NCBI GenBank assembly: GCA_904419785.1
Contig: CAJFSY010000006.1
Location: 1 to 64,000, forward strand
DNA: 64,000 nt
Reading direction: 5' to 3'
Origin: an uncultured Neglectibacter sp.
GTDB lineage: Bacteria; Bacillota; Clostridia; Oscillospirales; Acutalibacteraceae
Both the position numbers and the translations under genes were made by a program. Shown piece after piece: positions 21,873 through 35,586 of the stretch (the stretch's first letter is position 1; every line of letters begins with the position of its first letter). Below the pieces are notes generated by a model, which was not told the origin of the DNA, searched no databases, and was given only the letters and a program-made list of their open reading frames with translations.

Positions 21873-23537
21873 ATGCGTATTCAGCACAACATTATGGCGA
21901 TGAACGCCTATCGCAACTACAACAACAACACCTCCGCCCTCTCCAAGAACCTGGAGAAGCTGTCTTCCGGTTACAAGATCAACCGCGCTGGCGACGACGC
22001 TGCTGGTCTGGCAATTTCCGAGAAGATGCGTGCTCAGATCACTGGTTTGGAGCAGGCTCAGGACAACGCTAAGAGCGGCAAGAACCTGGTTCAGACTGCT
22101 GAAGGCGCTCTGCAGGAAGTTCATGACATGCTCAACCGTATGGTGAAACTGGCTGACCAGTCCGCCAACGGCACCTTTGACAACGAGATCGACCGTAAGG
22201 CTCTGCAGGACGAAATCGTTGAGTTGAAGAGCGAAATCAACCGTATCGCTGATTCCGCCAACTACAACGGCATTAACCTGCTGGACGGCTCTATGGACGC
22301 CAACGGCACCGTGGGCGGCGCAGCTGTGGATTTGACTTCTGCCCTGAGCGCTGCTGGCGGTACACAAGCTGTTGCCGAGGTTCAGCCCAAGTTTAGCATT
22401 AACTTGGATGGTTTCTCTCTGGCCGGTGGCACTGGTGCTGAAACAAAGAAAGTTACTTTGACGATCGGCACCGTGGCTTACAGTGTCTCTGTAACTGTTG
22501 GTCAGAGCGCTACCGTTGATGCTAGCGCTATTGCTGCTAAATTTACCGCTGATTTCTCTGACGGCAACGGTGTTACATATCGTGTTTCCGCTCAGGGTTC
22601 TAGCCTTGTGTTCACCTATAAGAGTGGCACTTTGAATTCAACTAATATCAATCCTGATAAGTCTGTAAAAATTGCTTGGTCTGGCACCAAAGCTGCAGCT
22701 GTTGGCTCTATCAATACAGGTACTCAGGTCATTCAGGCAGGCGTTCTTGCAGATCCTGGCAAGTTGGGTACTGCTTCTTTGACACTGACTGCCGATATGC
22801 TGCAAAATGGCAGCACAATTACCATTGGCAATGAGACCTTTACAATTAACTATGATGACGTCTATAATCCCACCACTGCTGCGGGCAATAAGATCATCAA
22901 TGTAAAGGATCTGTTGAATGATAGCGGTAAGTTGGACGCTACCGATGTTTCCGAGGTTGCCCGCCGCATCACCAATGCTTCTGCTGGTAATAATGCTGTT
23001 ACCATTGGTTATGATGGCAGCAAGCTGACCATGCAGGTACTTTCTACTTATGATAACGATAACGGCACTTATGGTGATTTGACCAACGTAGATAATATCA
23101 AGAAGCTGATCAGCGTGAACGCTCCCTCTGTTAAGGGTGAAGCTTTGACCCTGCAGATCGGCGATACCAGTGATTCTTTCAACCGTATGTCTTTGTCTAT
23201 CCAGGATATCCATACTTCTACTTTGAATATCGCTGACATTGACATTAGCTCTCAGAAGGGCGCTCAAGAAGCCGTTGACAAGATCAAGGACGCTATCAAT
23301 GATGTTTCCAGCATCCGCGCTAAGCTGGGCGCTACCCAGAACCGTCTGGATCACACCATCAACAACCTGTCTGTCATGACTGAGAACATTCAGGACGCTG
23401 AGTCCACCATCCGCGACACCGACGTTGCCGAAGAGATGATGGCTTACACCAAGAACAACATCTTGGTTCAGTCCGCTCAGGCTATGCTGGCTCAGGCCAA
23501 CCAGGTGCCCCAGGGCGTTCTGCAGCTGCTCCAGTAA
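21873..23537 (+). CDS. fliC: Flagellin (filament protein)
   Basis: 554 residues. The N-terminal D0/D1 region begins MRIQHNIMAMNAYRNYNNNT, includes LSSGYKINRAGDDAAGLAI, and runs to about residue 165. The C-terminal D1/D0 region includes ISSIRAKLGATQNRLDHTI and ends with AQAMLAQANQVPQGVLQLLQ. The middle (about 165-440) is a Thr/Ser/Ala-rich variable insert exposed on the filament and is the likely place for glycosylation or other modification. The codon choice is markedly more biased than in its neighbours, as expected for a very abundant protein. It has its own sigma-D promoter, CsrA-controlled leader and terminator. It is the only flagellin seen here. Confidence 0.97.
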   Translation: MRIQHNIMAMNAYRNYNNNTSALSKNLEKLSSGYKINRAGDDAAGLAISEKMRAQITGLEQAQDNAKSGKNLVQTAEGALQEVHDMLNRMVKLADQSANGTFDNEIDRKALQDEIVELKSEINRIADSANYNGINLLDGSMDANGTVGGAAVDLTSALSAAGGTQAVAEVQPKFSINLDGFSLAGGTGAETKKVTLTIGTVAYSVSVTVGQSATVDASAIAAKFTADFSDGNGVTYRVSAQGSSLVFTYKSGTLNSTNINPDKSVKIAWSGTKAAAVGSINTGTQVIQAGVLADPGKLGTASLTLTADMLQNGSTITIGNETFTINYDDVYNPTTAAGNKIINVKDLLNDSGKLDATDVSEVARRITNASAGNNAVTIGYDGSKLTMQVLSTYDNDNGTYGDLTNVDNIKKLISVNAPSVKGEALTLQIGDTSDSFNRMSLSIQDIHTSTLNIADIDISSQKGAQEAVDKIKDAINDVSSIRAKLGATQNRLDHTINNLSVMTENIQDAESTIRDTDVAEEMMAYTKNNILVQSAQAMLAQANQVPQGVLQLLQ

Positions 23538-23586
23538 GCGGCTTCGCGATTACGCGAATATTCAGTTCCCATCTAATGAAAAAGGC

Positions 23587-23617
23587 GGGGCGGGCATTAG
23601 GGCCCGTCCCGTTTTTT
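23587..23617 (+). terminator. Rho-independent terminator after flagellin
   Basis: GC-rich arms 23587-23595 and 23602-23610 (9 bp with one G-U pair) are followed directly by GTTTTTT. It cleanly separates flagellin from the next gene, whose start is 31 bases further on. Confidence 0.9.
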
Positions 23618-23647: not shown

Positions 23648-25642
23648 ATGGAAATTATCCAACTGGCCCGCAGGCTGGCCGAGCTTGGCCAGACCCAAGA
23701 AGCGCAACAAGCTTATTTTCTTGTTTTAAAAAATGAAAGCGGGAAAAACCCTACGCTAGAATTTGAAGCAGCTAACTACATATTCTTTTCAAAAGGAAAT
23801 TACCGTGTCGCTTACACGGCTTTTGTCTCACTATACAACCGAGGATATTATCAGGATAGGATCTTAGAGATCATCATACAGGGCTTTTATGTGCCCAATT
23901 TAAAGAAGCAGCAAGTATTATACGAGAAGAACCGCGCGAAATTTGAGCGCTATCCATATCTATTCCGACACGATTTTCTGGAATTCGAAGACCTTCCCAT
24001 TATATTTATTCCCTTTAACGATGAAGGATACATACCATTTTATAAAAACGAGAACCGTTTTGGCGAATATGTCAATTTCAACCGCCCCGTAATCGACCGT
24101 TATTTTTTCAAAGACTTGGAAAAACCCGTGTTGGCCGAGGATGTTTACTCGCAGTATCAACTGGAATATCTCAACGATAATGTACGCGAGAGCATGTGGA
24201 TCGCCCGTGAGAACCACATTTACCTTCATTATACCGATTGGGAAGTTTTCTGTGCCTATTTAGCTTGCTTAGATTTTAGGAAAATGTTGGCAAGCAAAAA
24301 ATTTGTTTTCCTCATTGAGGACGAGGTGTCACAATACCCCATCGACTTTAAAGAACGGTTTGGTATCGATTATAGCCAGTATGAAGTGAAGCCACTTGGC
24401 ATCCGGGAGATCAACCGCCTTATTTGGCACACCCAGCTTTCCGCCCACAATGGCGGCGACTTTTTTAACGAGATTTTGTATGGTCACCCCAACCTTATCG
24501 CCTATGAATCTCTGATGTTCGATAACACTTTAAAAACTGCCAACGAGTTTTATAACGTGGTGCGCAACCGTAAAAAGGGCGAAAGATTTATCGACGAAAC
24601 CCTTCATGCAATTAGCCAACTGCCCAACCCTACCTTAAAGGACTGTTTTCTGGCGGTTTTCTTATCGATGAAAGACAATTCTATGAAAAATGTCGACCCC
24701 GCCTCTCGCATTGTACCGGCGCTGCTTTACCAACCCCACTTTAAGAACATTTCTTATAACATCTCACGTTTGCCTACCACAGGCGAATCCGTACTTCACT
24801 CTGAGGAGTATGATCGAATCAAAAACTCCCCTGTTTTTACAGGTTTTCGTTACATCAAAACTTTTACTCCTTTGCGCCGTTTTACTTCCAGCTATGGTGC
24901 TACCATACGATTCATGGTCAAACAGATCAATGAAAAGAAAAGCGATGAAGAAAAAAAAGGTGCTGTGAACGACGTGTTCCTCAATAAAGTGCTCAACCGT
25001 AGTTTCATGATAGATGACTATGACCGCCTATATAAGGATAGCATTTTAGTTCGCTTTGAAGACGGTAAACTGAATCCCACTGCTACTTTCACCGCCCTGG
25101 CAGAGTTCCTGGATATCCCTTACACAGAAAGTATGACTTATTGTTCCGGTGCCACGGGAATAAACCCCGAATCCATGAAAGGCAACGACCTTGGATTTGA
25201 CCCAGCAGCTATTTACCGTACTTATGATGAATTCACCAATGATGCAGACCGTGCTTTAATTGAATATCTGCTGCGGGACGCTTATGAATACTATGGCTAT
25301 GATTTTCATTATTATCACGGCGAAACCGTTGATTCTGATTGGGTGAACGAACAATTAGAGCACATTGATCATTTGGATCAACTTATTTGTCAAACTATTG
25401 CTGAAGTATGCTACACTGCTATCAAAAAAATCGTTACAGACGAAACTGACGAAACCACAGTGAGGGAAATGGCAAATAAAGAAGGAGAGAATATTCTAAA
25501 GCAGTTCCGCGAAAACCGCCAAAATGCCATTGAGAAATTACTTTCCGGATTGCATTTTGTCAATATAAAAGGCCAGCCCTTACATATGATGCCCATGTTG
25601 AAACTTGACCCAGCTTTGCTGGAGCAACCCCTTTATCATTGA
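23648..25642 (+). CDS. TPR-containing sulfotransferase-like protein
   Basis: 664 residues, no signal peptide or clear membrane segment. Residues 1-70 look like two TPR helices (ARRLAELGQTQEAQQAYFLV, ANYIFFSKGNYRVAYTAF). Residues 100-350 are unrecognised. Residues 365-560 have sulfotransferase-like landmarks: RLPTTGESVL (375-384) in the position of the PAPS 5'-phosphosulfate loop, FTPLRRFTSSY (406-416) resembling the 3'-phosphate motif R-D-P-x-x-R-x-x-S, and DSILVRFEDGKLNPTATFTAL (464-484), the late ILVRYEDL-P-T motif. The 5' loop lacks the usual lysine, so activity is less certain. It starts a seven-gene unit whose next two genes make PAPS, which strongly supports a sulfotransferase. Its position right after flagellin suggests flagellin or a flagellar glycan as a possible acceptor. 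GAGGTGA precedes the ATG. Confidence 0.6.
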   Translation: MEIIQLARRLAELGQTQEAQQAYFLVLKNESGKNPTLEFEAANYIFFSKGNYRVAYTAFVSLYNRGYYQDRILEIIIQGFYVPNLKKQQVLYEKNRAKFERYPYLFRHDFLEFEDLPIIFIPFNDEGYIPFYKNENRFGEYVNFNRPVIDRYFFKDLEKPVLAEDVYSQYQLEYLNDNVRESMWIARENHIYLHYTDWEVFCAYLACLDFRKMLASKKFVFLIEDEVSQYPIDFKERFGIDYSQYEVKPLGIREINRLIWHTQLSAHNGGDFFNEILYGHPNLIAYESLMFDNTLKTANEFYNVVRNRKKGERFIDETLHAISQLPNPTLKDCFLAVFLSMKDNSMKNVDPASRIVPALLYQPHFKNISYNISRLPTTGESVLHSEEYDRIKNSPVFTGFRYIKTFTPLRRFTSSYGATIRFMVKQINEKKSDEEKKGAVNDVFLNKVLNRSFMIDDYDRLYKDSILVRFEDGKLNPTATFTALAEFLDIPYTESMTYCSGATGINPESMKGNDLGFDPAAIYRTYDEFTNDADRALIEYLLRDAYEYYGYDFHYYHGETVDSDWVNEQLEHIDHLDQLICQTIAEVCYTAIKKIVTDETDETTVREMANKEGENILKQFRENRQNAIEKLLSGLHFVNIKGQPLHMMPMLKLDPALLEQPLYH

Positions 25643-25675
25643 TCTCACATTCTAAGCAAATGGAGGACGAATACC

Positions 25676-26188
25676 ATGATTATTTGGCTGATCGGCATTT
25701 CTGGAGCAGGAAAAACCACTATAGGCCGCCGGTTGCATCAGTATTTTCAAGAGCAAGGCATCAAAAACGACATGATCGACGGAGATGATGTGCGTGACTT
25801 GTTCGACCGCGATCTAGGCTATACTGACGCAGACCGGGAAGCAAACATCAAACGCATCATCCTGGGCGCTTACCTTTTGGACCGAAACGACATTGTGGGC
25901 ATCATCTGCAACATCTCCCCCTTAGAGCATTTGCGGGCTCTTGCCCGGCGGAAAATTCCCGGATACCATGAAATATACCTGAAAAAAGACTTGTCTATTA
26001 GCCGCAAAAATGACGTAAAAGGCGTTTACCGGGACAACGAAGGGAAAACTCCTATTGTGGGGATCGACGCCTCTTTCGATGAGCCCCAACACCCAGACCT
26101 GGTGCTGGAAGTGGATAAAATGACAGAAGTTGAAACCTTCCAGGCCGTTTTGGATTATCTCGCACAGTGCGGAGGGAATAACGCATGA
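25676..26188 (+). CDS. cysC: Adenylylsulfate (APS) kinase
   Basis: 170 residues. Phosphorylates APS at the 3' position with ATP to give PAPS, the universal sulfuryl donor. The P-loop GISGAGKTT lies at 7-15; DGDDVRDLF and the DRxxNI segment (DADREANIKRI) form the APS site. The normal CxxRDxKGLY region is altered to LSISRKNDVKGVYRDNEG. In assimilatory pathways PAPS is reduced to sulfite; no reductase is seen here, and the neighbours point to PAPS use for sulfation. It overlaps the ATP sulfurylase gene by four bases (ATGA), so production of the two is coupled. ATGGAGGA precedes the start. Confidence 0.93.
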   Translation: MIIWLIGISGAGKTTIGRRLHQYFQEQGIKNDMIDGDDVRDLFDRDLGYTDADREANIKRIILGAYLLDRNDIVGIICNISPLEHLRALARRKIPGYHEIYLKKDLSISRKNDVKGVYRDNEGKTPIVGIDASFDEPQHPDLVLEVDKMTEVETFQAVLDYLAQCGGNNA

Positions 26189-27243
26189 ATCAAGTTGCCA
26201 TTAATGAAGAAACTCTTCAAGACGTTATCAATATAGAAACAGGATTGCTTGCCCCACTCACCGGTTTTATGGGAAAAGAAGATTTCCGCAATGTTGTAGA
26301 TAACTACTGCTTGGCTGATGGGAATGTTTTCACCATCCCCGTTACATTGGACGTGCCGGAAAACACTTACCGGGAAACGAAGCCCGGCGATACCCTTGCT
26401 TTAACGTTTCAAGGGAAGGCCGTTGCGGAACTGGAAGTGAAAAGCTTGTTTGAGGTGACCCCTGAGGACATCAGCAAAGTGTTTCTCACAGACGAAACCG
26501 CTCATCCTGGTGTAAAAAAAGAACTGGAGCGTTTCCCCTATCGTGTGGGCGGGCCTGTGCATTTGACAGACAAATCGTATTTAGAAGGGGCACTGCGTCC
26601 TGAGGATACCAAAAAAGTTTTCGCGGACCATGGCTGGAAAACTGTAGCGGGCTTTCAAACCAGAAACCCGGTACACAAGGCCCACGAGCATTTGCAGCGC
26701 GCCGCTTTGGAACTGTGCGACGGTTTGTTTATTAACCCCATTACCGGTTGGAAGAAAAAAGGGGATTTTACTGAGGAAGCTGTTATGGCCGCATACCACG
26801 CTATGAGCCAGCAGTTTTATCCAAAAGACCGGGTGCACATTGCCGGGCTCAAAACACAGATGCGTTATGCTGGGCCCCGTGAAGCCGTATTTCACGCCAT
26901 TATCCGGCGCAACCTGGGATGCACCCACTTTATCATTGGCCGCGATCACGCGGGCGTAGGCGGCTATTACGGCGCTTATGACGCCCACAAACTTGCCCAC
27001 AAGCTTGCTTCTGAACATGACCTGGGCATTCAGCTGCTGCTCATGCGGGAGCCTTATTACTGCAAAACCTGCGGACAAGTTGTCACAGACAAGCATTGCG
27101 CCCATTATGATACCGGCCGGGTAGAAATCAGCGGCACCATTATTCGCGGTTACATTTCCCAAGGCTACATCCCGGATGAGCTGATGATGCGCAAGGAAAT
27201 TTTTGAAGCAATCCTGGCCTGTGGGCAGATCTTCATTGAGTGA
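26185..27243 (+). CDS. sat: Sulfate adenylyltransferase (ATP sulfurylase)
   Basis: 352 residues. Joins sulfate to ATP to give APS and pyrophosphate. The catalytic QTRNPVHKAHE (158-168) and GRDHAGVGG (252-260) are intact. LAPLTGFMG opens the protein, and C293-x2-C296 with C305 form the zinc-type knuckle seen in many bacterial Sat proteins. It is somewhat shorter than the usual 380-400 residues because the N-terminal PUA-like domain is trimmed. It is the monofunctional bacterial/archaeal Sat type, not CysD/CysN. With cysC it forms a complete sulfate-to-PAPS route. Confidence 0.95.
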   Translation: MNQVAINEETLQDVINIETGLLAPLTGFMGKEDFRNVVDNYCLADGNVFTIPVTLDVPENTYRETKPGDTLALTFQGKAVAELEVKSLFEVTPEDISKVFLTDETAHPGVKKELERFPYRVGGPVHLTDKSYLEGALRPEDTKKVFADHGWKTVAGFQTRNPVHKAHEHLQRAALELCDGLFINPITGWKKKGDFTEEAVMAAYHAMSQQFYPKDRVHIAGLKTQMRYAGPREAVFHAIIRRNLGCTHFIIGRDHAGVGGYYGAYDAHKLAHKLASEHDLGIQLLLMREPYYCKTCGQVVTDKHCAHYDTGRVEISGTIIRGYISQGYIPDELMMRKEIFEAILACGQIFIE

Positions 27244-27249
27244 GCCTGT

Positions 27250-27495
27250 ATGAATTCTCAAGCCGCATTGAAGAAACTGCGCGAGCTTCTGGATGATGAG
27301 ACGTATCAAAAAGTGATGGAAGAACTGGCGGGAACAACGGTATATTTTCCGGCCAGCGGGACTCCCACCGACAGGAATGAGCGCAACCTGATGCTTAAAG
27401 ATGACTTTTACAGCGGTCAGTATGAAATCGCTGATTTAGCCCACAAATACGATCTGAGCATTTCCAGAACCTATAAAATTTTGCAGTCAAAGTAA
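27250..27495 (+). CDS. Small HTH protein (Mor-like fold)
   Basis: 81 residues. The C-terminal half, from RNERNLMLKDDFYSGQYEIA to HKYDLSISRTYKILQSK, is a helix-turn-helix like that of Mor/C-type activators: an IADLAHKYDLS turn and an SRTYKIL recognition helix. The N-terminal half (LKKLRELLDDETYQKVMEEL) is a helical, probably dimerising segment. It starts six bases after the ATP sulfurylase gene, without much of a ribosome site (GAGTGAGCCTG), so coupling is likely. A local regulator of this cluster is the simplest idea. I know of no characterised homologue. Confidence 0.6.
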   Translation: MNSQAALKKLRELLDDETYQKVMEELAGTTVYFPASGTPTDRNERNLMLKDDFYSGQYEIADLAHKYDLSISRTYKILQSK

Positions 27496-27601
27496 ATTTT
27501 CCTTCTTTCTTGGAGTACGACCAAAACCCCCGTTTTGCTATTTTATTGCAAAATGAGACGTGGTATACTGAAATCACTTCAAGAAGAAGGGAGATATCCA
27601 C

Positions 27602-28903
27602 ATGAGCTTAGAAACTTTGAAAGACCAAGAGGTGTTTGTCACCTTTTTAGCTTTGGCCTTGCTGCTTGCAGGCGCCTATATTGGTGGAAAGATTGTAGAG
27701 GTGTTTCGGGCGCCAAAAGTGATCGGCGAGATTTTGGGAGGAATGCTTTTCGGAGGCACTTTTCTCTATCACTTCTTCCCCTCCGCCATGGAAGCTGTTT
27801 TCCAAGCCTATCCCCAAGAAGGGAAAGTTTTGAACCTGGTATATCAGCTGGGCCTGATCTTCCTCATGTTCTGTTCCGGTTTCAATACCCAGATCGAAGT
27901 GGGAAAAGAAAACCGCCGGATCATCAGCTGTGTTTTTATCGGGGCCACGATCCTTCCCATGCTAGGCGGCATCCCCTTCGCCTTTTTCATGAAAGAGCAT
28001 TTTATCGGCGAGGCGGGCAATCAGCTCTCTTTTGTTTTAGTGTTTATTATCGGTGTGGCCATCACATCCATCCCGGTGATCTCCAAGATCTTTTTCGATA
28101 TGGGCGTGATGAATACTCCATTTACCAATACCGTACTTACCGCCTCCACGTTACAGGACCTTTGTTTATGGATCTTGTTAAATCTGGCTACCCGGGTGGC
28201 TGAAACCGGCACAGCCAATCCCTTGGATATGGCGTTGGTGGTCATTTTGACATTGGGCATGTTCGTAGTGGCAAAACTTTTTGCCGACCATCTTCCTTTT
28301 GGATATCACGGCAAAGTAAAGGCAACCGACTTTTACACCATCAGTTTTGTAGCTCTCTTCCTTGTTTGCGCTTTGTTGTGCCGTGTGGGGATCAATATCA
28401 TGTATTCCGCTTTCCTGGTGGGATATTTGGTAAAAGCTATTTCCAAACGGGATGAAGCCGCCAAAGGCCGCATAGAAGCTGTTTCGAATTTCGCGTTTTC
28501 CTTTTTCGTGCCGGTCTACTTTGCTTTAGTAGGCATCCAGCTGAACTTGCTGCATCATTTTTCCTTTGCGCGTTTCGCCTTGTTCTTTGTGGTTGCCTTC
28601 GGCCTGGAAGCGATTGGGACCATTTTGATGCTGCAATTCACCAATCTGCGCAAATCTGTAATTGGGAATTTCGCGGTCACTATGAACGCTCGTGGCGGCC
28701 CTGGCATCGTATTAGCCACTGTGGCATACGCCAGCAAAATTATCAGCATTGAATTTTTCACTGTGCTTATCCTGACCACCATGCTTTCTTCCATGATCGC
28801 CGGCTATTGGCTGCGCTATCAGCAGAAGAAAGACCCTGAGATTTTCCATAAACTTACAAAAGAAGGAGGAGATGGGGTCTCTACCCATCAAGAAAAAGCA
28901 TGA
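27602..28903 (+). CDS. CPA-type cation:proton antiporter (Kef/NhaP-like)
   Basis: 433 residues with about 12 hydrophobic segments and no soluble regulatory domain. KVIGEILGGMLFGG resembles the first-helix motif of monovalent cation:proton antiporter-2 proteins, and ARGGPGIVLATVAYASKIIS the later R-G-x-x-x-x-A motif. The best guess is Na+ or K+/H+ exchange at the membrane. Its presence inside a PAPS cluster is unexplained: it may supply or export an ion or anion linked to sulfation. 106 bases separate it from the HTH gene, with a TATACT-like -10 (27564-27569) that could be an internal promoter; GAAGGGAGA precedes the ATG. It overlaps the next gene by four bases. Confidence 0.8.
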   Translation: MSLETLKDQEVFVTFLALALLLAGAYIGGKIVEVFRAPKVIGEILGGMLFGGTFLYHFFPSAMEAVFQAYPQEGKVLNLVYQLGLIFLMFCSGFNTQIEVGKENRRIISCVFIGATILPMLGGIPFAFFMKEHFIGEAGNQLSFVLVFIIGVAITSIPVISKIFFDMGVMNTPFTNTVLTASTLQDLCLWILLNLATRVAETGTANPLDMALVVILTLGMFVVAKLFADHLPFGYHGKVKATDFYTISFVALFLVCALLCRVGINIMYSAFLVGYLVKAISKRDEAAKGRIEAVSNFAFSFFVPVYFALVGIQLNLLHHFSFARFALFFVVAFGLEAIGTILMLQFTNLRKSVIGNFAVTMNARGGPGIVLATVAYASKIISIEFFTVLILTTMLSSMIAGYWLRYQQKKDPEIFHKLTKEGGDGVSTHQEKA

Positions 28904-29859
28904 AAAAGTATATTTTAACTGTAGGACCTGCCCTTGGCACAGAAGTACCGCTGAAAGAAGTTCATAACGAAAAGAACATTTACCGCATCAACGGCGCTCA
29001 CGGAAGCATTGAAGATATCGAGCGGATGATCCAGAACATCCGCAGCCAGATCCCTGAAAGCGAGATCTTGCTGGACCTTCCGGGAAACAAAGTGCGCACC
29101 GCAAACATCAAGGAAGGCATCCAGTTGGAAAAGGGGAAAACATTCACCCTTTCTTGCGACCATTTTAACTACCGTGATTTTTACCGCCATTTGAAACCCG
29201 GTATGACCGCATGGGCCAACGACAGCATTTTCGAGTTTGAAGTTGTCTCTGCAGATGAGAACGGCATTGTGTTCCTATCCAAATCTGATGGCGTTTTGAT
29301 CAATAATAAAGGCGTACACGTGCGGGGCATCCACAAAGATATCCCCTTCCTGTTTGAAAAAGACCGCCAGTTGATCGACTTGGCTAACCGCTACAAATTG
29401 GATTATGTGGGCCTTTCCTTTGTACGCTTCCCTGAAAACGTGAAGGAAGCCGCCGCCCTGATCGGCAGTGGCACAAAGATCATTTCCAAGATCGAGACCA
29501 TTGACGCTGTTGAGCATTTGAAAGAGATCCTTCCCTTGGTAAAATACATTCTGGTGGACCGGGGCGACCTTTCCACGGATATTGGCATCGCAAAGATTCC
29601 GCGGTTCCAGAAATATATTATTGAAAAGGCCCTCTACGCCAACGTTAAAGTCTTTTTAGCCACCCAGGTCCTTAAGAACATGGAGACCAAGCCCATCCCC
29701 ACTATCGGTGAGATCGAGGCCCTGTATGAGATCATGAAATCCGGCGTATACGGCGTTCAGATGTCCGAAGAGACCGCTGTGGGACGCTATGTTCCCGAAT
29801 GCGTGGCTATGCTGAACGAAATGAGCCAGGAAGTGGAATCCGAAACGATTCAGCTTTGA
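28900..29859 (+). CDS. Pyruvate-kinase-like protein lacking the C-terminal domain
   Basis: 319 residues against about 470-585 for pyruvate kinases. It has the TIM barrel and a short B-domain but no C-terminal allosteric domain. Recognisable motifs: ILTVGPALG (TIGPAS equivalent), YRINGAHG (the NFSHG site, changed to NGAHG), LDLPGNKVRT (equivalent to D-x-KGPEIR), IISKIETIDA with the catalytic K197 retained, LVDRGDLST (VARGDLG equivalent), ATQVLKN and MSEETAVG (SGETA equivalent). The metal/phosphate loops are altered, so normal PEP-to-ATP catalysis is doubtful. It overlaps the antiporter gene by four bases. Its role in the cluster is unknown; a PEP- or phosphosulfate-related reaction or a regulatory role are possibilities only. 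Confidence 0.8.
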   Translation: MKKYILTVGPALGTEVPLKEVHNEKNIYRINGAHGSIEDIERMIQNIRSQIPESEILLDLPGNKVRTANIKEGIQLEKGKTFTLSCDHFNYRDFYRHLKPGMTAWANDSIFEFEVVSADENGIVFLSKSDGVLINNKGVHVRGIHKDIPFLFEKDRQLIDLANRYKLDYVGLSFVRFPENVKEAAALIGSGTKIISKIETIDAVEHLKEILPLVKYILVDRGDLSTDIGIAKIPRFQKYIIEKALYANVKVFLATQVLKNMETKPIPTIGEIEALYEIMKSGVYGVQMSEETAVGRYVPECVAMLNEMSQEVESETIQL

Positions 29860-29900
29860 TTTGGCCGAAATTATTTGAAAGATAGACTGAGGAACTTTGT

Positions 29901-30716
29901 ATGATACAACCATCAGACCTACACACCCATTCTCAAGCTTCCGACGGGCAATATACCCCCAGGGAGCTGGTGGGGCTGGCAAAAGCAGCTGGCATCCAAT
30001 GCCTGGCGATGACAGATCACGATACCATTGACGGTGTGGAAGAGGCTGTTGCGGCAGGGCAAGACGCAGGCATTACCGTTTTGCGGGGCGTGGAATTTGG
30101 CGCCAGTGAAGACCGCCATCTGCACATATTGGGATTGAATCTCACCTCCGGCTGTGCCGCTTTAGAGCAACTGTGCCAGACTTTGAAAGACAGCCGCAAT
30201 CAGAGGAAATACCGCATTGTGGATTTTCTTGAGGAAAAAGGGATTCACATCGATCTGAAAGAAGTGGAAGAATTGGCAGGCGGCGATGTGATCGCCCGGC
30301 CTCACTTCGCCCAAATCTTGGTGCGTCACGGCTATGTGGCCTCTACCCGGGAAGCTTTCGACCGTTACCTGGATACCAACGAATACCAGCGCATAGAGCG
30401 CTTTAAAGCTGATGCCTCCACTTGCATCGACATTATCCACAAAGCCGGTGGAAAAGCGGTGTTGGCCCATCCTTACCAGCTGAAATTCTCTGACGAAAAG
30501 CTGGAGGACATGGTAGTCCAGCTGAAAGAACAGGGATTAGACGGTATCGAGTGCTATTATCCCAAGCATACTCCCGCTATGGTAGAACAATACTTAGGCT
30601 TTGCGAAAAAATACGCCCTTCATATCAGCGGGGGCAGCGATTTCCATGGAGAAAAGGTAAAACCTGATATCGCTTTGCGACCCTTGCCTTTGGAATTAGA
30701 TTGGTTGTTGTGCTGA
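29901..30716 (+). CDS. PHP-domain phosphoesterase, candidate PAP phosphatase
   Basis: 271 residues with a full set of PHP metal ligands: H8/H10 (DLHTHS), D15, H40 (TDHDT), E65 (GVEF), H75, H135 (ARPH), H190 (LAHPY), D247 and H249 (SGGSDFHG). The sequence belongs with the TrpH/YciV (RNase AM) group, which includes enzymes that remove the 3'-phosphate from 3',5'-nucleotide bisphosphates. Sulfotransferases release exactly such a product (PAP), which inhibits them and must be cleared. Position at the end of the PAPS cluster makes this function likely but unproven. A strong terminator begins 22 bases after the stop. Confidence 0.85.
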   Translation: MIQPSDLHTHSQASDGQYTPRELVGLAKAAGIQCLAMTDHDTIDGVEEAVAAGQDAGITVLRGVEFGASEDRHLHILGLNLTSGCAALEQLCQTLKDSRNQRKYRIVDFLEEKGIHIDLKEVEELAGGDVIARPHFAQILVRHGYVASTREAFDRYLDTNEYQRIERFKADASTCIDIIHKAGGKAVLAHPYQLKFSDEKLEDMVVQLKEQGLDGIECYYPKHTPAMVEQYLGFAKKYALHISGGSDFHGEKVKPDIALRPLPLELDWLLC

Positions 30717-30737
30717 AAGTTTATATAAATTAAGAAA

Positions 30738-30772
30738 GGAAGCTGCCCGCTCATTGGGACAGCTTCCTTTTT
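30738..30772 (+). terminator. Terminator closing the PAPS/sulfation cluster
   Basis: GGAAGCTGCCC pairs with GGGACAGCTTCC with one bulge and is followed by TTTTTT. It lies between convergent genes (PHP protein on plus, hemerythrin on minus) and may serve both. Confidence 0.85.
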
Positions 30773-30785
30773 TATGGCTGCTTTC

Positions 30786-31181
30786 TTATTTCTTCAAAAA
30801 GGCTCCCAGCTTCTTATCCGCCACACGAATGTGGGAGATCAAAACGCCTACATGACCGTTTAAGTTGGCCAAGTCGCCTACTGTGGGCCCTGACATGGGA
30901 ATGGCTGCACCGATCTCGCGCAGCTTCCGCTTATAGTTGTCATGGAACAGCTTGTGGGTGTTGTACTCAGGATACTTAGCCTGCTGCTGCAACTGCTCTT
31001 CGTGGGCAAAATGCTTATCCACATAGTCCAGCAGGAATCGGAGGGTAGACTCGATCTTCGCACGGCCCTGACCACTGCTGCAAGCGTCCATCAGCTGGTT
31101 TATGGCATTGAACAGCTGACGATGTTCGCTATCGATGATAGCGTTTCCGGTCTCCAAGTCTTTTGTCAATTCGTACTTCAT
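30786..31181 (-). CDS. Bacteriohemerythrin
   Basis: 131 residues, a single four-helix hemerythrin domain. All di-iron ligands of the family are present: H20, H57, E61, H76, H80, H117 and D122. Such single-domain proteins bind O2 reversibly and are common in anaerobic and microaerophilic motile bacteria, where they may sense, store or scavenge oxygen, possibly alongside chemotaxis. It is monocistronic, convergent with the PHP gene and divergent from the Clp-like gene. AAAGGAGC precedes the start. Confidence 0.93.
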   Translation of the reverse strand: MKYELTKDLETGNAIIDSEHRQLFNAINQLMDACSSGQGRAKIESTLRFLLDYVDKHFAHEEQLQQQAKYPEYNTHKLFHDNYKRKLREIGAAIPMSGPTVGDLANLNGHVGVLISHIRVADKKLGAFLKK

Positions 31182-31309: not shown

Positions 31310-32671
31310 ATGGAGTTCGATTTTTCTTACTTTTGTTCTTGCAGCCCTGAAGAGTATCAGGTAATTCATCATTATACAGACTATTACGCCGATTTGGGCG
31401 CTGCGTACCAATTTCCCAGGTGCCATATGGCCCCAGGATGTGCCCCACAATGGGCTACTCTCAGCTTTTGGCGCAATACAGAAGGGTATCATCTTGGCTT
31501 TCAGCCCCGGATACTTTACCAGGGTACAAGCCAAGGACTTGCCAAGTTTTTTCAAACCAGCAGCCACTCGTTTCCCACTTTTGAAGCCATGACCCAATGC
31601 TTACGCTCTTTGAAACAAGAACTTGGGCAAGAATCTCTGCCTTTGCTCTATAGGGTGCTCAACGCTGCGCTGCAATCGCTGGTATTAGGACAAACCTCTG
31701 CTGTGGAGGAAGTCGCGTTTAAACTTTACGGCCACATCTGGAAAAAGAACCCAGCGCGGCCGCTTTCTCTTATTTTTTACGGTCCCACAGGCGTAGGAAA
31801 GTCAGAACTGGGAAAAGCTATCGCCCCGGTACTCAACCGGCAGTGCGGCAAAGAAACTTACCAGTTTGTCTGGACAGAACTGAATACCTTTACCCAGGCC
31901 CATTCTGTCTACCGCCTTACCGGAGCGCCTCCCGGCTATGTAGGGTACGACGACCAACCCATCTTCGAAGCGGTGCGCCGCAACCCTTACACTGTGTTTA
32001 TGTTCGACGAGCTGGAAAAAGCCCATCCGGAAGTGCTGAAAGTGTTCATGTCCATTTTGGACGAAGGCCGCTGCACAGCCCGGAAAGAGGACTCCCAAGG
32101 CAACCGGGAACTGGATTTCCGCCATTGTGTCTTTCTGTTCACTACAAACCAAGACCTTTCGGAAAACGGTTCCCAGCCTTTAGGATTCACCGGAACACCA
32201 GAGAAAGAACTTACCTCCAAAAGCTGGGAACAGCCGCTGCTTAGCCAATCTCCCATGGGAACCCTGGCCCACCGTTTGTTTCTTGAAAGCGAAACAGCCC
32301 GGCAAGCCATGGTACGTTCCGGCGCTTTAAAAGAGATCGCAGGCCGGTTCAGCGGCATTATCCCCTTTCGCCCGCTGGATTCTCAGGCAAAGATCGCTAT
32401 CACCGCAAAACAGATCGTTTCGTTGGGAAAAGAATACGGTTTACAGCTGGAAGAAGTAGACCCGGAAATCGTTCAGGCAGTTACTCCAAAAGAATCTTTT
32501 TCCGTGCGGTCCTCGCTGGGCATTTTAGAGGGCATTTTCACCCCCCTGTTCGCCCAGCAGCCACGCTCGCAAGGGACCCGCTTCAAGCTTGCCGGCCCTT
32601 TGGAAAACATGGCACTGGTCCCTTTAGCTCCATTGCCTCAAAAAGACGAACCGGTCAAAGTGGTATGTTAA
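31310..32671 (+). CDS. Stand-alone Clp-type AAA+ ATPase (ClpA/ClpB D2-like)
   Basis: 453 residues. One AAA+ module of the Clp/Hsp100 second-domain type: Walker A GPTGVGKSE (158-166), pore loop GAPPGYVGYD (205-214), Walker B VFMFDELEK (229-237), sensor-1 TTN (278-280) and a C-terminal small domain with KQIVSLGKEYGL. It lacks the first AAA+ domain, the Clp N-domain and the ClpB middle coiled coil. The N-terminal 145 residues (SCSPEEYQVIHHYTDYYADL, many Tyr and Cys) are unrecognised. It may be an unfoldase or remodelling factor for a specific partner. A hairpin partly covers its ribosome site. The gene converges on the lipoprotein gene with a four-base overlap. Confidence 0.8.
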   Translation: MEFDFSYFCSCSPEEYQVIHHYTDYYADLGAAYQFPRCHMAPGCAPQWATLSFWRNTEGYHLGFQPRILYQGTSQGLAKFFQTSSHSFPTFEAMTQCLRSLKQELGQESLPLLYRVLNAALQSLVLGQTSAVEEVAFKLYGHIWKKNPARPLSLIFYGPTGVGKSELGKAIAPVLNRQCGKETYQFVWTELNTFTQAHSVYRLTGAPPGYVGYDDQPIFEAVRRNPYTVFMFDELEKAHPEVLKVFMSILDEGRCTARKEDSQGNRELDFRHCVFLFTTNQDLSENGSQPLGFTGTPEKELTSKSWEQPLLSQSPMGTLAHRLFLESETARQAMVRSGALKEIAGRFSGIIPFRPLDSQAKIAITAKQIVSLGKEYGLQLEEVDPEIVQAVTPKESFSVRSSLGILEGIFTPLFAQQPRSQGTRFKLAGPLENMALVPLAPLPQKDEPVKVVC

Positions 32672-33569: not shown

Positions 33570-35474
33570 TCACTTGCAGCGGATGATTACAGAATCATTC
33601 TCTTGCAGCACCTGCTGGAATTCGGCTTCTTTACCATTGACCAGCAATTCCACCGGCCGGTCCAGATTTTGAAAATCGATCTGGGAATATTCCAGCAGAT
33701 CCATCAGGTAGTATGGGGAGCCGTCCAGCTTGCCAGGCAAGTCCATGGCTTCATCATTCAGATACAGATGCAGCGGGCGGAAAAGGACTTGCTCTTGGGG
33801 AGCCTGGTTGACAGGTTCTTCCTTTACAGCCGGAAGCTCTGTCGGGGCCGGAGGGGCAGTTTTCTTCACCGGGGCTTTTGGCCGGGAGCCTTTGGGCATA
33901 GTGAGGATCACATCCCCTTGACTCAAAAAGGTATCCCACGGCACCTCCTGATTGTTCACCAAGACGTCGCCGGAAAAATCCTCCCCTAAAAGCTGTCTCA
34001 AAGTTTTGGAGGCGGGGCTTCCGCTTTTTGCGGGGATAAAGTCGATCTTGTCCCCTGCATGGACAACTGTATGGATGGAAGCATCTTCTCCATTCACCCG
34101 CAAAATAGCGGGCAAAGCGGGCTCTCCATGGAACACGGTACGTTTGCCGTCTAAAGTGACGCTCAAACTCTTGCCGCTTTTTCCGATCATATCCGAATAG
34201 AGATATCCATTCATCATGAGGATCTCTTGCAAACTCAGCACACCGCTGCGGAACAGCTTGGCAGGTTTGCCATTGAGAAGGATCACATAGCTGTCATTGA
34301 GCAATCCCAAACCTGCTGAAATCGCAATGCCCAAAGGCGTGGCAAACTCTGGGGTCGCCACTTCGATCTCTTTGGAAACAACGTTTTTGGAGAAATTGGC
34401 GCCCGCAATGGCCACCCGTTTCTCATCCATCTGCAAATGCTGGGCCACTTTACTGCACAGCCCTTGCAGCTTACTGCCGCCTCCAGCCAGAAACACCGCT
34501 GAAGGCGCTTTGCCCCCATTGGCTTCTGTCACATGGCTGGCGATCTCTTGGGCCAGCTGGTCCATTGCTTCCGCTACGGACTCTTCCACTTCTTTGGCCT
34601 GGGTGGTTTCATCCAACCCCAAAATATTGGTATAGGGGATTTCTTCTTTTTCGCCCAGGCTGCGCTTCATTTGCTCAGCCATCTGGAAATCTACCAGGAA
34701 ATACCGCATGATGGCTTCTGTGATCTCGTCGCCCGCCACAGTAGCCATTGTATAACCCGTAACGCTTCCTTGACGGCACACCGCAATATCCGTGGTGCCC
34801 GCGCCAATATCCACAAGGGCCAGGTTCAGCAACCGGATATCTCCCGGGATCGCCGCATTCATCGCGGCAATGGGTTCCAACGTCATGCTGGACACCTGCA
34901 GCCCTGCCCCGTTCATGGCGGAATACAAGCTCTCTACCACCTCTCCGGGCAGAAACGTGGCCACTACATCTACTTCGGCTTTCTTGCCGTTATGATGCAG
35001 CAGCATAGCCAAAGGATACTGGTCCAAACGGTATTGGGCAACGCTGTATCCTACCAGGAAAAACTGCCGCTCTTCCTGTTCTTGCTGTTGGAGCTGTTCT
35101 TCTGCTGCGGTGATGGCGCCGGCTTCCAGCTGCCTGACCAAATTCTCGGTAATGGCCTGCTTCTCTTCCAGGTCCAGTGAAAAGCTTCCCCGTTCTGTGC
35201 GCAGAGCGCGGCCGGCAGCCGCCACGCACACCCTGCTCAGGTGGACTCCAAGCTTTGCTTCCAGTTTGCCGGTCACTTCTTTGGCCAATTTCGCTACAGC
35301 GTCGATGTCATCGATCTGGCCATCCATCATGACCCGGTTCTTATGCTCGGCACTCTCCACCGCCAAAAGCTCAAACTTTCCTTCCGCCGGCTTCCCCACG
35401 ATCCCCACAATGCTGCGGGTTCCGATATCTAAAGCAAATATCAAATCTTTTTCTTGTTTTTTCCACTTTGCCAT
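33570..35474 (-). CDS. FtsA/PilM-like actin-fold protein with C-terminal extension
   Basis: 634 residues from the ATG at 35474, preceded by GGGAAAGGAATG; an upstream TTG would add 31 residues of unlikely sequence. It has the actin/Hsp70 ATPase signature: DLIFALDIGTRSIVGIV (phosphate 1), ALVDIGAGTTDIAVCR (phosphate 2) and AVFLAGGGSKLQGL (adenosine motif), with an inserted FtsA-type 1C domain. The C-terminal 250 residues hold two or three small beta-grasp-like modules (VNGEDASIHTVVHAGDKIDF, VLVNNQEVPWDTFLSQGD, LLVNGKEAEFQQVLQENDSV) joined by a Pro/Lys-rich linker, absent from canonical FtsA. Such longer FtsA-like proteins occur in Clostridia alongside a normal FtsA. A division or membrane-scaffold role is inferred. 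Confidence 0.75.
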   Translation of the reverse strand: MAKWKKQEKDLIFALDIGTRSIVGIVGKPAEGKFELLAVESAEHKNRVMMDGQIDDIDAVAKLAKEVTGKLEAKLGVHLSRVCVAAAGRALRTERGSFSLDLEEKQAITENLVRQLEAGAITAAEEQLQQQEQEERQFFLVGYSVAQYRLDQYPLAMLLHHNGKKAEVDVVATFLPGEVVESLYSAMNGAGLQVSSMTLEPIAAMNAAIPGDIRLLNLALVDIGAGTTDIAVCRQGSVTGYTMATVAGDEITEAIMRYFLVDFQMAEQMKRSLGEKEEIPYTNILGLDETTQAKEVEESVAEAMDQLAQEIASHVTEANGGKAPSAVFLAGGGSKLQGLCSKVAQHLQMDEKRVAIAGANFSKNVVSKEIEVATPEFATPLGIAISAGLGLLNDSYVILLNGKPAKLFRSGVLSLQEILMMNGYLYSDMIGKSGKSLSVTLDGKRTVFHGEPALPAILRVNGEDASIHTVVHAGDKIDFIPAKSGSPASKTLRQLLGEDFSGDVLVNNQEVPWDTFLSQGDVILTMPKGSRPKAPVKKTAPPAPTELPAVKEEPVNQAPQEQVLFRPLHLYLNDEAMDLPGKLDGSPYYLMDLLEYSQIDFQNLDRPVELLVNGKEAEFQQVLQENDSVIIRCK

Positions 35475-35586
35475 AGGTTGGCATTCCTTTCCCTGCAAAG
35501 TCACCGGACTGTTCTTCTTCCTAGTGAAAAGGGAACCTGCTTCCAGATTCCCTAACCACCTAAACAAACGGTTTAAACTTCAGCTT

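Follow-up and report, generated by a model that had tools for sequence, protein, structure and literature searches.

A flagellin-linked transferase of sulfotransferase fold and its putative PAPS-forming donor module in an uncultured Neglectibacter sp.

Overview

Why should genes for the synthesis of 3'-phosphoadenosine 5'-phosphosulfate (PAPS) stand directly behind a flagellin gene? The question is raised by a seven-gene cassette at positions 23648 to 30716 of a 64,000-nucleotide stretch, here called the window, which comprises positions 1 to 64,000 of contig CAJFSY010000006.1 of an uncultured Neglectibacter sp. (assembly GCA_904419785.1; 2,227,998 bases, 38 contigs, 98.3% complete). Our best explanation, which we regard as probable, is that the first gene of the cassette (gene 1) encodes a flagellin-dedicated transferase of sulfotransferase fold that is served by exchangeable modules supplying 3'-phosphonucleotide donors, and that here the donor is PAPS and flagellin or a flagellin glycan is sulfated. 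The locus combines, at the level of sequence, PAPS-making enzymes, a sulfotransferase fold, a conserved linkage to flagellin and a donor module that is exchanged among relatives. The seven plus-strand genes listed in an earlier note on this DNA were all recovered as open reading frames, and the families of genes 2 to 7 were assigned by Pfam and NCBIfam.

PAPS synthesis

Gene 2 (25676 to 26188, 170 amino acids) encodes an APS (adenosine 5'-phosphosulfate) kinase, CysC (PF01583, E = 1.7e-32), the PAPS-making enzyme, and gene 3 (26185 to 27243, 352 amino acids) encodes an ATP sulfurylase, Sat (PF01747, E = 9.8e-78), the APS-making enzyme. Sat scored 418 bits with NCBIfam NF003166, over the cut-off, and its alignment with a solved ATP sulfurylase spans the whole protein (E = 3.6e-93). 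CysC was aligned along its length to solved APS kinases and passed the Pfam cut-off, but with the NCBIfam apsK models it scored under the curated thresholds. With both families present and aligned in full to solved enzymes, it is strongly supported that Sat and CysC would make PAPS from sulfate and 2 ATP, as had been proposed.

Fold of the transferase

Gene 1 (23648 to 25642) encodes a protein of 664 amino acids, single in the source genome by the relative search, which on its own gave no convincing match in Pfam, NCBIfam, PHROGs or the PDB sequences. Its structure was predicted with AlphaFold2 from an alignment of 36 family sequences, the window protein included. The best model had a mean pLDDT (predicted local distance difference test) of 91.2 and a pTM (predicted template modeling score) of 0.90, the five models ranging from 83.1 to 91.2 in pLDDT. 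In a Foldseek search of the PDB with this model, 13 chains had an E value of 0.001 or below, and every one was a sulfotransferase: 12 chains of human or tick tyrosylprotein sulfotransferase (TPST) and the sulfotransferase domain of a Synechococcus olefin synthase. Ranks 14 and 15 (E = 2.3e-3 and 0.063) were sulfotransferases also, so that the best 15 matches all were. The top matches were human TPST2 and TPST1 (E = 3.7e-6, probability 1.00), and 4gox likewise had a probability of 1.00. Together with the pLDDT of 91, this indicates that the gene 1 model has the alpha/beta fold of the sulfotransferases, and the earlier description of gene 1 as sulfotransferase-like was borne out in that no unrelated fold was found.

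The N-terminal part of about 100 residues is all-helical, with five helices that by inspection resemble tetratricopeptide repeats. Weak matches to Sulfotransfer_3 were obtained for 9 of the 36 family members (E <= 0.5, best 0.0014), and none for the window protein.

Linkage to flagellin

The flagellin gene fliC (21873 to 23537, plus strand) encodes 554 amino acids with Pfam matches to both Flagellin_N and Flagellin_C. It is the single Flagellin_N match in the source genome, and its product is proposed to be the acceptor or to bear the glycan that is modified.

Relatives of gene 1 were gathered with gene 1 alone as the query. Genome contigs yielded 37 loci, and in the genome samples a match was present in 6 of 300 genomes at the family level and in 11 of 394 at the order level. 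The records are named Flavonifractor, Agathobaculum, Anaeromassilibacillus, Lawsonibacter, Oscillibacter, Flintibacter, other Clostridia, or unclassified Bacillota or bacteria, names that we read as mostly those of gut bacteria. Neighborhoods were counted over 50 loci, after removal of repeats (L017, L019, L021, L022, L023, L029, L080 and L082) and with the window itself excluded. Upstream sequence of 400 bases or more was available for 41 loci, and 39 of them had a flagellin C-terminus on the same strand within 2.5 kb upstream of the transferase, a count in which genes may intervene. The end of the flagellin match lay 80 to 200 bases from the transferase in 29 of the 39, and about 1.4 kb away in L026, where a second flagellin stands in between, and in L037. 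The two loci without an upstream flagellin C-terminus were L020, which has a truncated transferase and the N-terminal part of a flagellin upstream, and L087, a partial match of 26% identity. On the other side, a CysC-like kinase came next in 41 of the 45 loci with at least 600 bases downstream, the exceptions being L020, L087, L056 and L062. The last two, which grouped together on the transferase tree, had no CysC-like kinase within 900 bases after the transferase. In L066 (5820 to 7522) and L081 (351 to 2384) the transferase gene itself was interrupted by shifts of frame or by a single stop codon.

Flagellin_N matches were present in 32 of the 300 family-level genomes, apparently the same draw as that of the transferase search. 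Five of the six transferase genomes bear flagellin; the sixth, G078, has both of its transferase matches cut by contig ends. The remaining 27 flagellin-bearing genomes gave no transferase match. In G125, G217 and G262 the transferase is present two or three times, and every copy has a flagellin gene of its own next to it. These results place the transferase in a family found in relatives of Oscillospiraceae, almost always close to flagellin and with a 3'-kinase after it, and indicate that the link to flagellin proposed from the window is conserved across species.

This conservation bears on the target. The transferase could use PAPS to sulfate a wall or capsule polymer, the flagellin neighborhood being a regulatory convenience for motile cells that also alter their surface. 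Sulfotransferase folds serve many substrates, and sugar-nucleotide genes occur in the donor modules of relatives, both of which suit such a target. Against this reading stand the flagellin found upstream of the transferase in 39 of the 41 loci with enough sequence and the genomes in which each of several copies has a separate flagellin gene, and we consider it unlikely. The earlier note had named flagellin, a flagellar glycan or a secondary wall polymer as the surface target; the first two fit the conserved adjacency, because of which the wall polymer is disfavored.

Donor modules behind the transferase

Module types were assigned by inspection of the genes behind the transferase and are denoted by letters (S, P, M, C, K, G, O and x). 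The constant frame was flagellin, transferase and 3'-kinase, often with a PHP phosphoesterase, and what accompanied the kinase varied. The S type resembles the window in having CysC, Sat and a helix-turn-helix (HTH) protein. It was rare, Sat with HTH being seen in three of the other 50 loci (L027, L035 and L047), and an antiporter and a short pyruvate kinase as in the window were present in L035 and L047 and not seen in L027. The sequence of L037 stops 40 residues into a kinase similar to that of the window. At E <= 1e-60, close relatives of Sat were found in the source genome, in 1 of 394 genomes of the order and in 1 of 391 of the class, in draws that do not list G078, the source of L027. 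A fixed seven-gene unit was thus rejected: of the seven families suggested to co-occur beside fliC, the transferase and the kinase do so, but Sat and the HTH protein are confined to few loci.

The P type comprises a kinase, a methyltransferase, a 763-residue protein resembling phosphoenolpyruvate synthase, a glutamine amidotransferase, a nucleotidyltransferase and a PHP protein. It was scanned in L043 (12015 to 17973), where the 763-residue protein matched PRK05849 with 907 bits, over the cut-off, and the amidotransferase matched gamma-glutamyl-CDP-amidate hydrolase (CDP, cytidine diphosphate) with E = 7.7e-27, below the cut-off. L046, L053 and L054 were assigned by similarity to L043, and no PHP gene was seen in L053. 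No earlier report of O-methyl-phosphoramidate (MeOPN) linked to flagellin was found among the matches listed in the literature search. In the M type the kinase is fused to a methyltransferase (L030, L031, L039, L051, L055, L058, L060, L084 and L085; PHP seen in 7 of 9), for which a methyl-phosphate donor would fit. The C type has a kinase, an IspD/ribitol-type cytidylyltransferase and usually an extended short-chain dehydrogenase/reductase; fourteen loci are so labeled. In L061, L065 and some others the label depends on IspD-like matches that are weak, and L024 and L025 end inside that gene. Among cultured relatives, Flintibacter muris DSM 110149 has a C-type module. The remaining types were single or unclear. 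Several types may occur in one genome: strain D16-76 combines a P module with two C modules, the metagenome-assembled genome S26_Bin1 an S module (L047) with an M module (L039), and more than one transferase locus was also present in Anaeromassilibacillus sp. An200 and G568.

The kinases differ along with the modules. All four S-type kinases keep the motif [DE]REANIKR and the proline of I[SA]P, and 36 of 36 other labeled kinases have neither. In four solved APS kinases, the proline is present in 4 of 4 and the asparagine of the other motif in 2 of 4, which makes the proline the more reliable of the two marks. With NCBIfam models, S-type kinases matched best with apsK/PRK00889, just under or below the cut-offs, and were under the PRK05541 cut-off (4 of 4), whereas the other kinases matched best with PRK05541 and were over its cut-off (8 of 8 tested). 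The latter model (NF004041) is named adenylyl-sulfate kinase but scores highest with kinases of modules without Sat, so that its name may mislead; the kinases it covers may include ones with nucleotide substrates other than APS. Since their kinase is of another subfamily and no Sat was seen where looked at, most relatives of gene 1 probably do not sulfate. Their gene content suggests that their donors are probably 3'-phospho-CDP-linked groups such as MeOPN.

Exchange of modules

When 46 transferases were placed on a tree, those of the S type came out at four separate positions (the L027 row is partial, covering 32% of the columns), and a single clade of Sat-type transferases was rejected by the approximately unbiased test (p-AU = 1.4e-42). 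The P-type transferases formed one clade with support of 100/100. One case of exchange is that of L035 (3684 to 7851) and L047 (12035 to 16206). Their transferases are 60% identical, and their modules are far more alike (CysC 96%, HTH protein 96%, antiporter 95%, pyruvate kinase 92%, and Sat 90% in its first piece only). DNA identity climbs in the last 60 bases or so of the transferase gene and drops at the stop codon of the pyruvate kinase gene, indicating exchange of a module with sharp edges between divergent transferases. A synonymous-site anchor at the 3' end of the transferase gene that might guide such exchange was not found (0.51 versus 0.40-0.54 elsewhere). The window PHP was 66-69% identical to the PHP proteins of its M- and K-type neighbors on the tree (L030, L060, L031 and L032) versus 62% to that of S-type L047. 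In L035 a second flagellin gene begins after the module.

An origin from a mobile element was also considered and rejected. No close Sat relative was found in viral contigs by exact peptide patterns, no transferase in plasmids, and no relative of the HTH protein in phages at 1e-5, despite the match of this protein to two PHROGs families of late transcriptional activators.

The donor used in the window

Like most relatives probably do, the window transferase might use another 3'-phosphonucleotide donor, Sat and CysC then serving something else. This would agree with the lack of Sat near most relatives and with a transferase sequence that carries no Sat-type-specific residue. The Sat/CysC module, however, occupies the same slot as the other donor modules, and the source genome offers no second destination for PAPS among the families searched. 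No match to PAPS/APS reductase (PF01507) was found in it, with 14 of 14 control genomes positive, so that the absence of a reductase noted earlier extends to the whole assembly as far as this model detects. Sulfotransfer_3 (PF13469) and Sulfotransfer_1 (PF00685) likewise gave no match, weaker negatives in that 3 of 14 and 2 of 14 controls were positive; as these two models are also blind to gene 1, another divergent sulfotransferase could have escaped. Over these three families, to which the search for PAPS users was confined, gene 1 is the sole candidate PAPS user found. A glutamine-kinase-like protein, which a MeOPN-type pathway would call for beside a CDP-amidate hydrolase, is absent from the source genome (among six genomes, only G217 has one). 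On balance, use of a donor other than PAPS in the window seems quite unlikely.

Acceptor on the filament

The closest structural matches of gene 1 are tyrosylprotein sulfotransferases, and the window flagellin has 13 tyrosines, 8 of them in its variable part, which would be in keeping with direct sulfation of flagellin tyrosines rather than of a glycan or of Ser/Thr. Fold similarity does not fix the acceptor, and nine related flagellins of less than 460 amino acids have 1-3 tyrosines in their variable regions. The comparison was made with flagellins having both ends; longer ones, including the long frame of L034, were counted and not aligned. These data do not favor tyrosine sulfation in general, and we think it improbable here. 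Sulfation of flagellin itself or of a flagellin glycan would each be compatible with the locus.

Last, ordinary assimilatory sulfate reduction or sulfur storage lying beside flagellin by chance, of which Sat and CysC would be the first steps, was rejected as scarcely credible, with no APS or PAPS reductase match in the genome and with the Sat module behind the transferase in 4 of 4 loci and flagellin upstream in the three with sufficient contig (window, L035 and L047), in a set that was found via the transferase, Sat copies elsewhere being detectable only by the Sat searches.

Remaining genes and proposed mechanism

Gene 4 (27250 to 27495, 81 amino acids) encodes a Mor-family HTH protein (PF08765, E = 1e-6, over the cut-off). 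Its presence in the module of all three other Sat-bearing loci goes with its probable role as the regulator of the module. Gene 5 (27602 to 28903, 433 amino acids) encodes a CPA2-type cation:proton antiporter (PF00999, E = 1.2e-32), and gene 6 (28900 to 29859, 319 amino acids) a short pyruvate-kinase barrel (PF00224, E = 9.4e-47). The latter was aligned with solved pyruvate kinases across the entire barrel and keeps most of the positions that we take to be catalytic. "Truncated," as it had been called, is therefore apt for its length, but no obvious loss of the active site accompanies it. A far stronger pyruvate kinase match lies elsewhere in the source genome, and at E <= 1e-60 no other relative of the short protein was found in 202 genomes of the order (1 of 202).

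Gene 7 (29901 to 30716, 271 amino acids) encodes a PHP phosphoesterase with PDB relatives 9etk, 7ug9, 2yb1 and 3e0f. It scored 190 bits with the NCBIfam model of RNase RNM (cut-off 375) and 188 bits with that of 3',5'-nucleoside bisphosphate phosphatase (cut-off 400), in both cases under the cut-off. From its context, we propose that it hydrolyzes 3'-phosphoadenosine 5'-phosphate (PAP), the 3',5'-bisphosphate product.

In the mechanism that we envisage, PAPS formed by Sat and CysC would be bound by the 664-residue transferase, which would transfer the sulfuryl group, ahead of export or in the course of it, to flagellin or a flagellin glycan. The PHP protein would then remove PAP, and ATP for further PAPS synthesis may be regenerated from ADP by the short pyruvate kinase.

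Several observations weigh against sulfation of the filament from PAPS by this transferase. Some concern gene 1. The TM-scores by target length of the Foldseek matches were 0.38-0.57, with root mean square deviations of 8-19 A; we read these values as the effect of insertions, the predicted match being limited to the core. Members of the sulfotransferase superfamily usually have Lys or Arg in the 5'-phosphosulfate donor loop. At the expected position of this loop, which was placed by position and from general knowledge, gene 1 reads WHTQLSAHNGGDFF, without the usual Lys/Arg, and the near-invariant family loop so placed, WHTQLSxHNGGDFF, has His instead. No position was specific to full-length Sat-type transferases (3 or 4 rows versus the rest; 1.3 or 0.2 expected by chance), so that nothing in the enzyme itself marks the use of PAPS. 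A clearly changed loop was found only in the phosphoramidate-type transferases (4 of 4). Since the S type has no distinguishing residue while the P type has changed a near-constant loop, the transferase may tolerate several donors, or the donors of the C, M and K types may be misjudged. The Sulfotransfer models, too, miss gene 1.

Further points concern the module, the flagellin and the locus. M-type modules are likewise more alike than their transferases, and the contrast seen between L035 and L047 may therefore come partly from a faster-evolving transferase. In L047 (12570 to 13609) Sat is split over two reading frames, the copy being broken or misassembled. The antiporter and the HTH gene have no role in the proposed mechanism. 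The scores of the PHP protein lie under the curated cut-offs, and a PHP gene was present within 7.5 kb downstream of the transferase in 14 of the 25 loci with enough sequence. The variable regions of the nine related flagellins share no conserved tyrosine. A terminator-like hairpin stands between flagellin and the cassette, a point against taking their co-transcription as given.

Surroundings of the cassette

This hairpin (23580 to 23617, plus strand) has a 16-pair stem followed by a T run, and a second one (30735 to 30770, listed on the minus strand; 14-pair stem, T runs on both sides) closes the cassette, in agreement with the flanking terminators described earlier. Terminator-like sites numbered 17 in 10 kb versus 11.4 in shuffled sequences, and these two had the longest stems. 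Four-base overlaps occur twice in the cassette, between cysC and sat and between the antiporter and pyruvate kinase genes, for which "several" was slightly strong. The latter pair accompanies Sat in two other loci.

The cassette is embedded in a chemotaxis and flagellar region, with genes for CheA, CheR, CheB, FlgN, FlgK, a DUF6470 protein, a YjfB-type motility protein and flagellin upstream, and for FliD, FlhA and a FliM/N-type protein farther downstream. Just past it, a gene for a 453-residue AAA (Clp-like) ATPase (31310 to 32671) adjoins a hemerythrin-domain gene on the minus strand (30786 to 31181), and an FtsA/PilM-like protein of 665 amino acids is encoded on the minus strand (33570 to 35567) within the flagellar region.

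Relation to known systems

TPSTs are PAPS-dependent and act on protein. TPST1 and TPST2 are the closest solved folds to the gene 1 transferase, but identity is 11-16%, they form an animal family, and gene 1 differs in its putative donor loop, where the expected Lys/Arg was not seen, its N-terminal helical part and its insertions. In NodP/NodQ/NodH and RaxP/RaxQ/RaxST, genes for PAPS synthesis stand beside a dedicated sulfotransferase and the product is a sulfated surface or secreted molecule; we know of no flagellin link and no exchangeable donor module in these sets.

In the MeOPN pathway of Campylobacter jejuni, the 3'-phosphate is added by the APS-kinase-like Cj1415; this and most of the other gene-to-step assignments are general background. 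The CDP-phosphoramidate 3'-phosphate is made by Cj1415-Cj1418 from glutamine, ATP and CTP, as far as the cited text goes (PMC11800397). The pathway, with its transferases Cj1421 and Cj1422, resembles the present loci in having a donor with a 3'-phosphate, and a P-type gene set occurs in four flagellin-near loci. Its target, however, is the capsule and not flagellin, and the window has Sat and APS kinase instead.

The glycan of the Clostridioides difficile type B flagellin is sulfonated (PMC5207245). This glycan is not known to be a PAPS product. In the type A system (CD0240-CD0244), genes of the flagellar cluster likewise build a nucleotide-activated group, for which a CDP-threonine donor is proposed, and put it on flagellin; the transferase is TagF-like as modeled, a separate glycosyltransferase adds the core N-acetylglucosamine, and no 3'-kinase or sulfate is described in the relevant passages (PMC10714395). 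The b-type flagellin glycan of Pseudomonas aeruginosa resembles that of type A, according to a passage in PMC11833859. Glycoproteins and archaella of Halobacterium salinarum carry N-glycans modified by sulfotransferases, in the excerpts of PMC11980604 and PMC6591318. The likeness is a glycan-bearing swimming filament with sulfotransferases, and the difference an archaeal N-glycan pathway and an unrelated filament protein.

No description of a sulfated bacterial flagellin was found among the matches listed in the open-access literature searched, which do include archaeal N-glycan sulfation, and to that extent the impression that no flagellum-linked sulfation operon had been described stood. The terms sulfotransferase, sulfat- and phosphoramid- were absent from the main text of a 2026 paper on clostridial flagellar pseudaminic acid.

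Implications

A broader proposal, which we put forward tentatively as a possibility, is that one sulfotransferase-fold family decorates flagellins through a shared 3'-phosphonucleotide handle. Each kinase type would add a 3'-phosphate to a nucleotide-activated group, the sulfotransferase-type pocket would recognize that 3'-phosphate, and the group transferred would be set by the swapped donor module: sulfate, MeOPN, perhaps methyl-phosphate or alditol- and sugar-phosphates. The set of loci offers directly testable pairs of donor and transferase in cultured species. Flagellin is a strong immune ligand. If the explanation preferred here is true, the flagella of gut-commensal kin would carry negatively charged sulfate esters, and those of relatives phosphorus-based groups, by the action of one enzyme family. 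If the broader proposal is true, several chemical coats of the flagellum would be switched or carried together while the scaffold of the transferase stays the same, and phages and host immunity would face a modular switch of chemotype.

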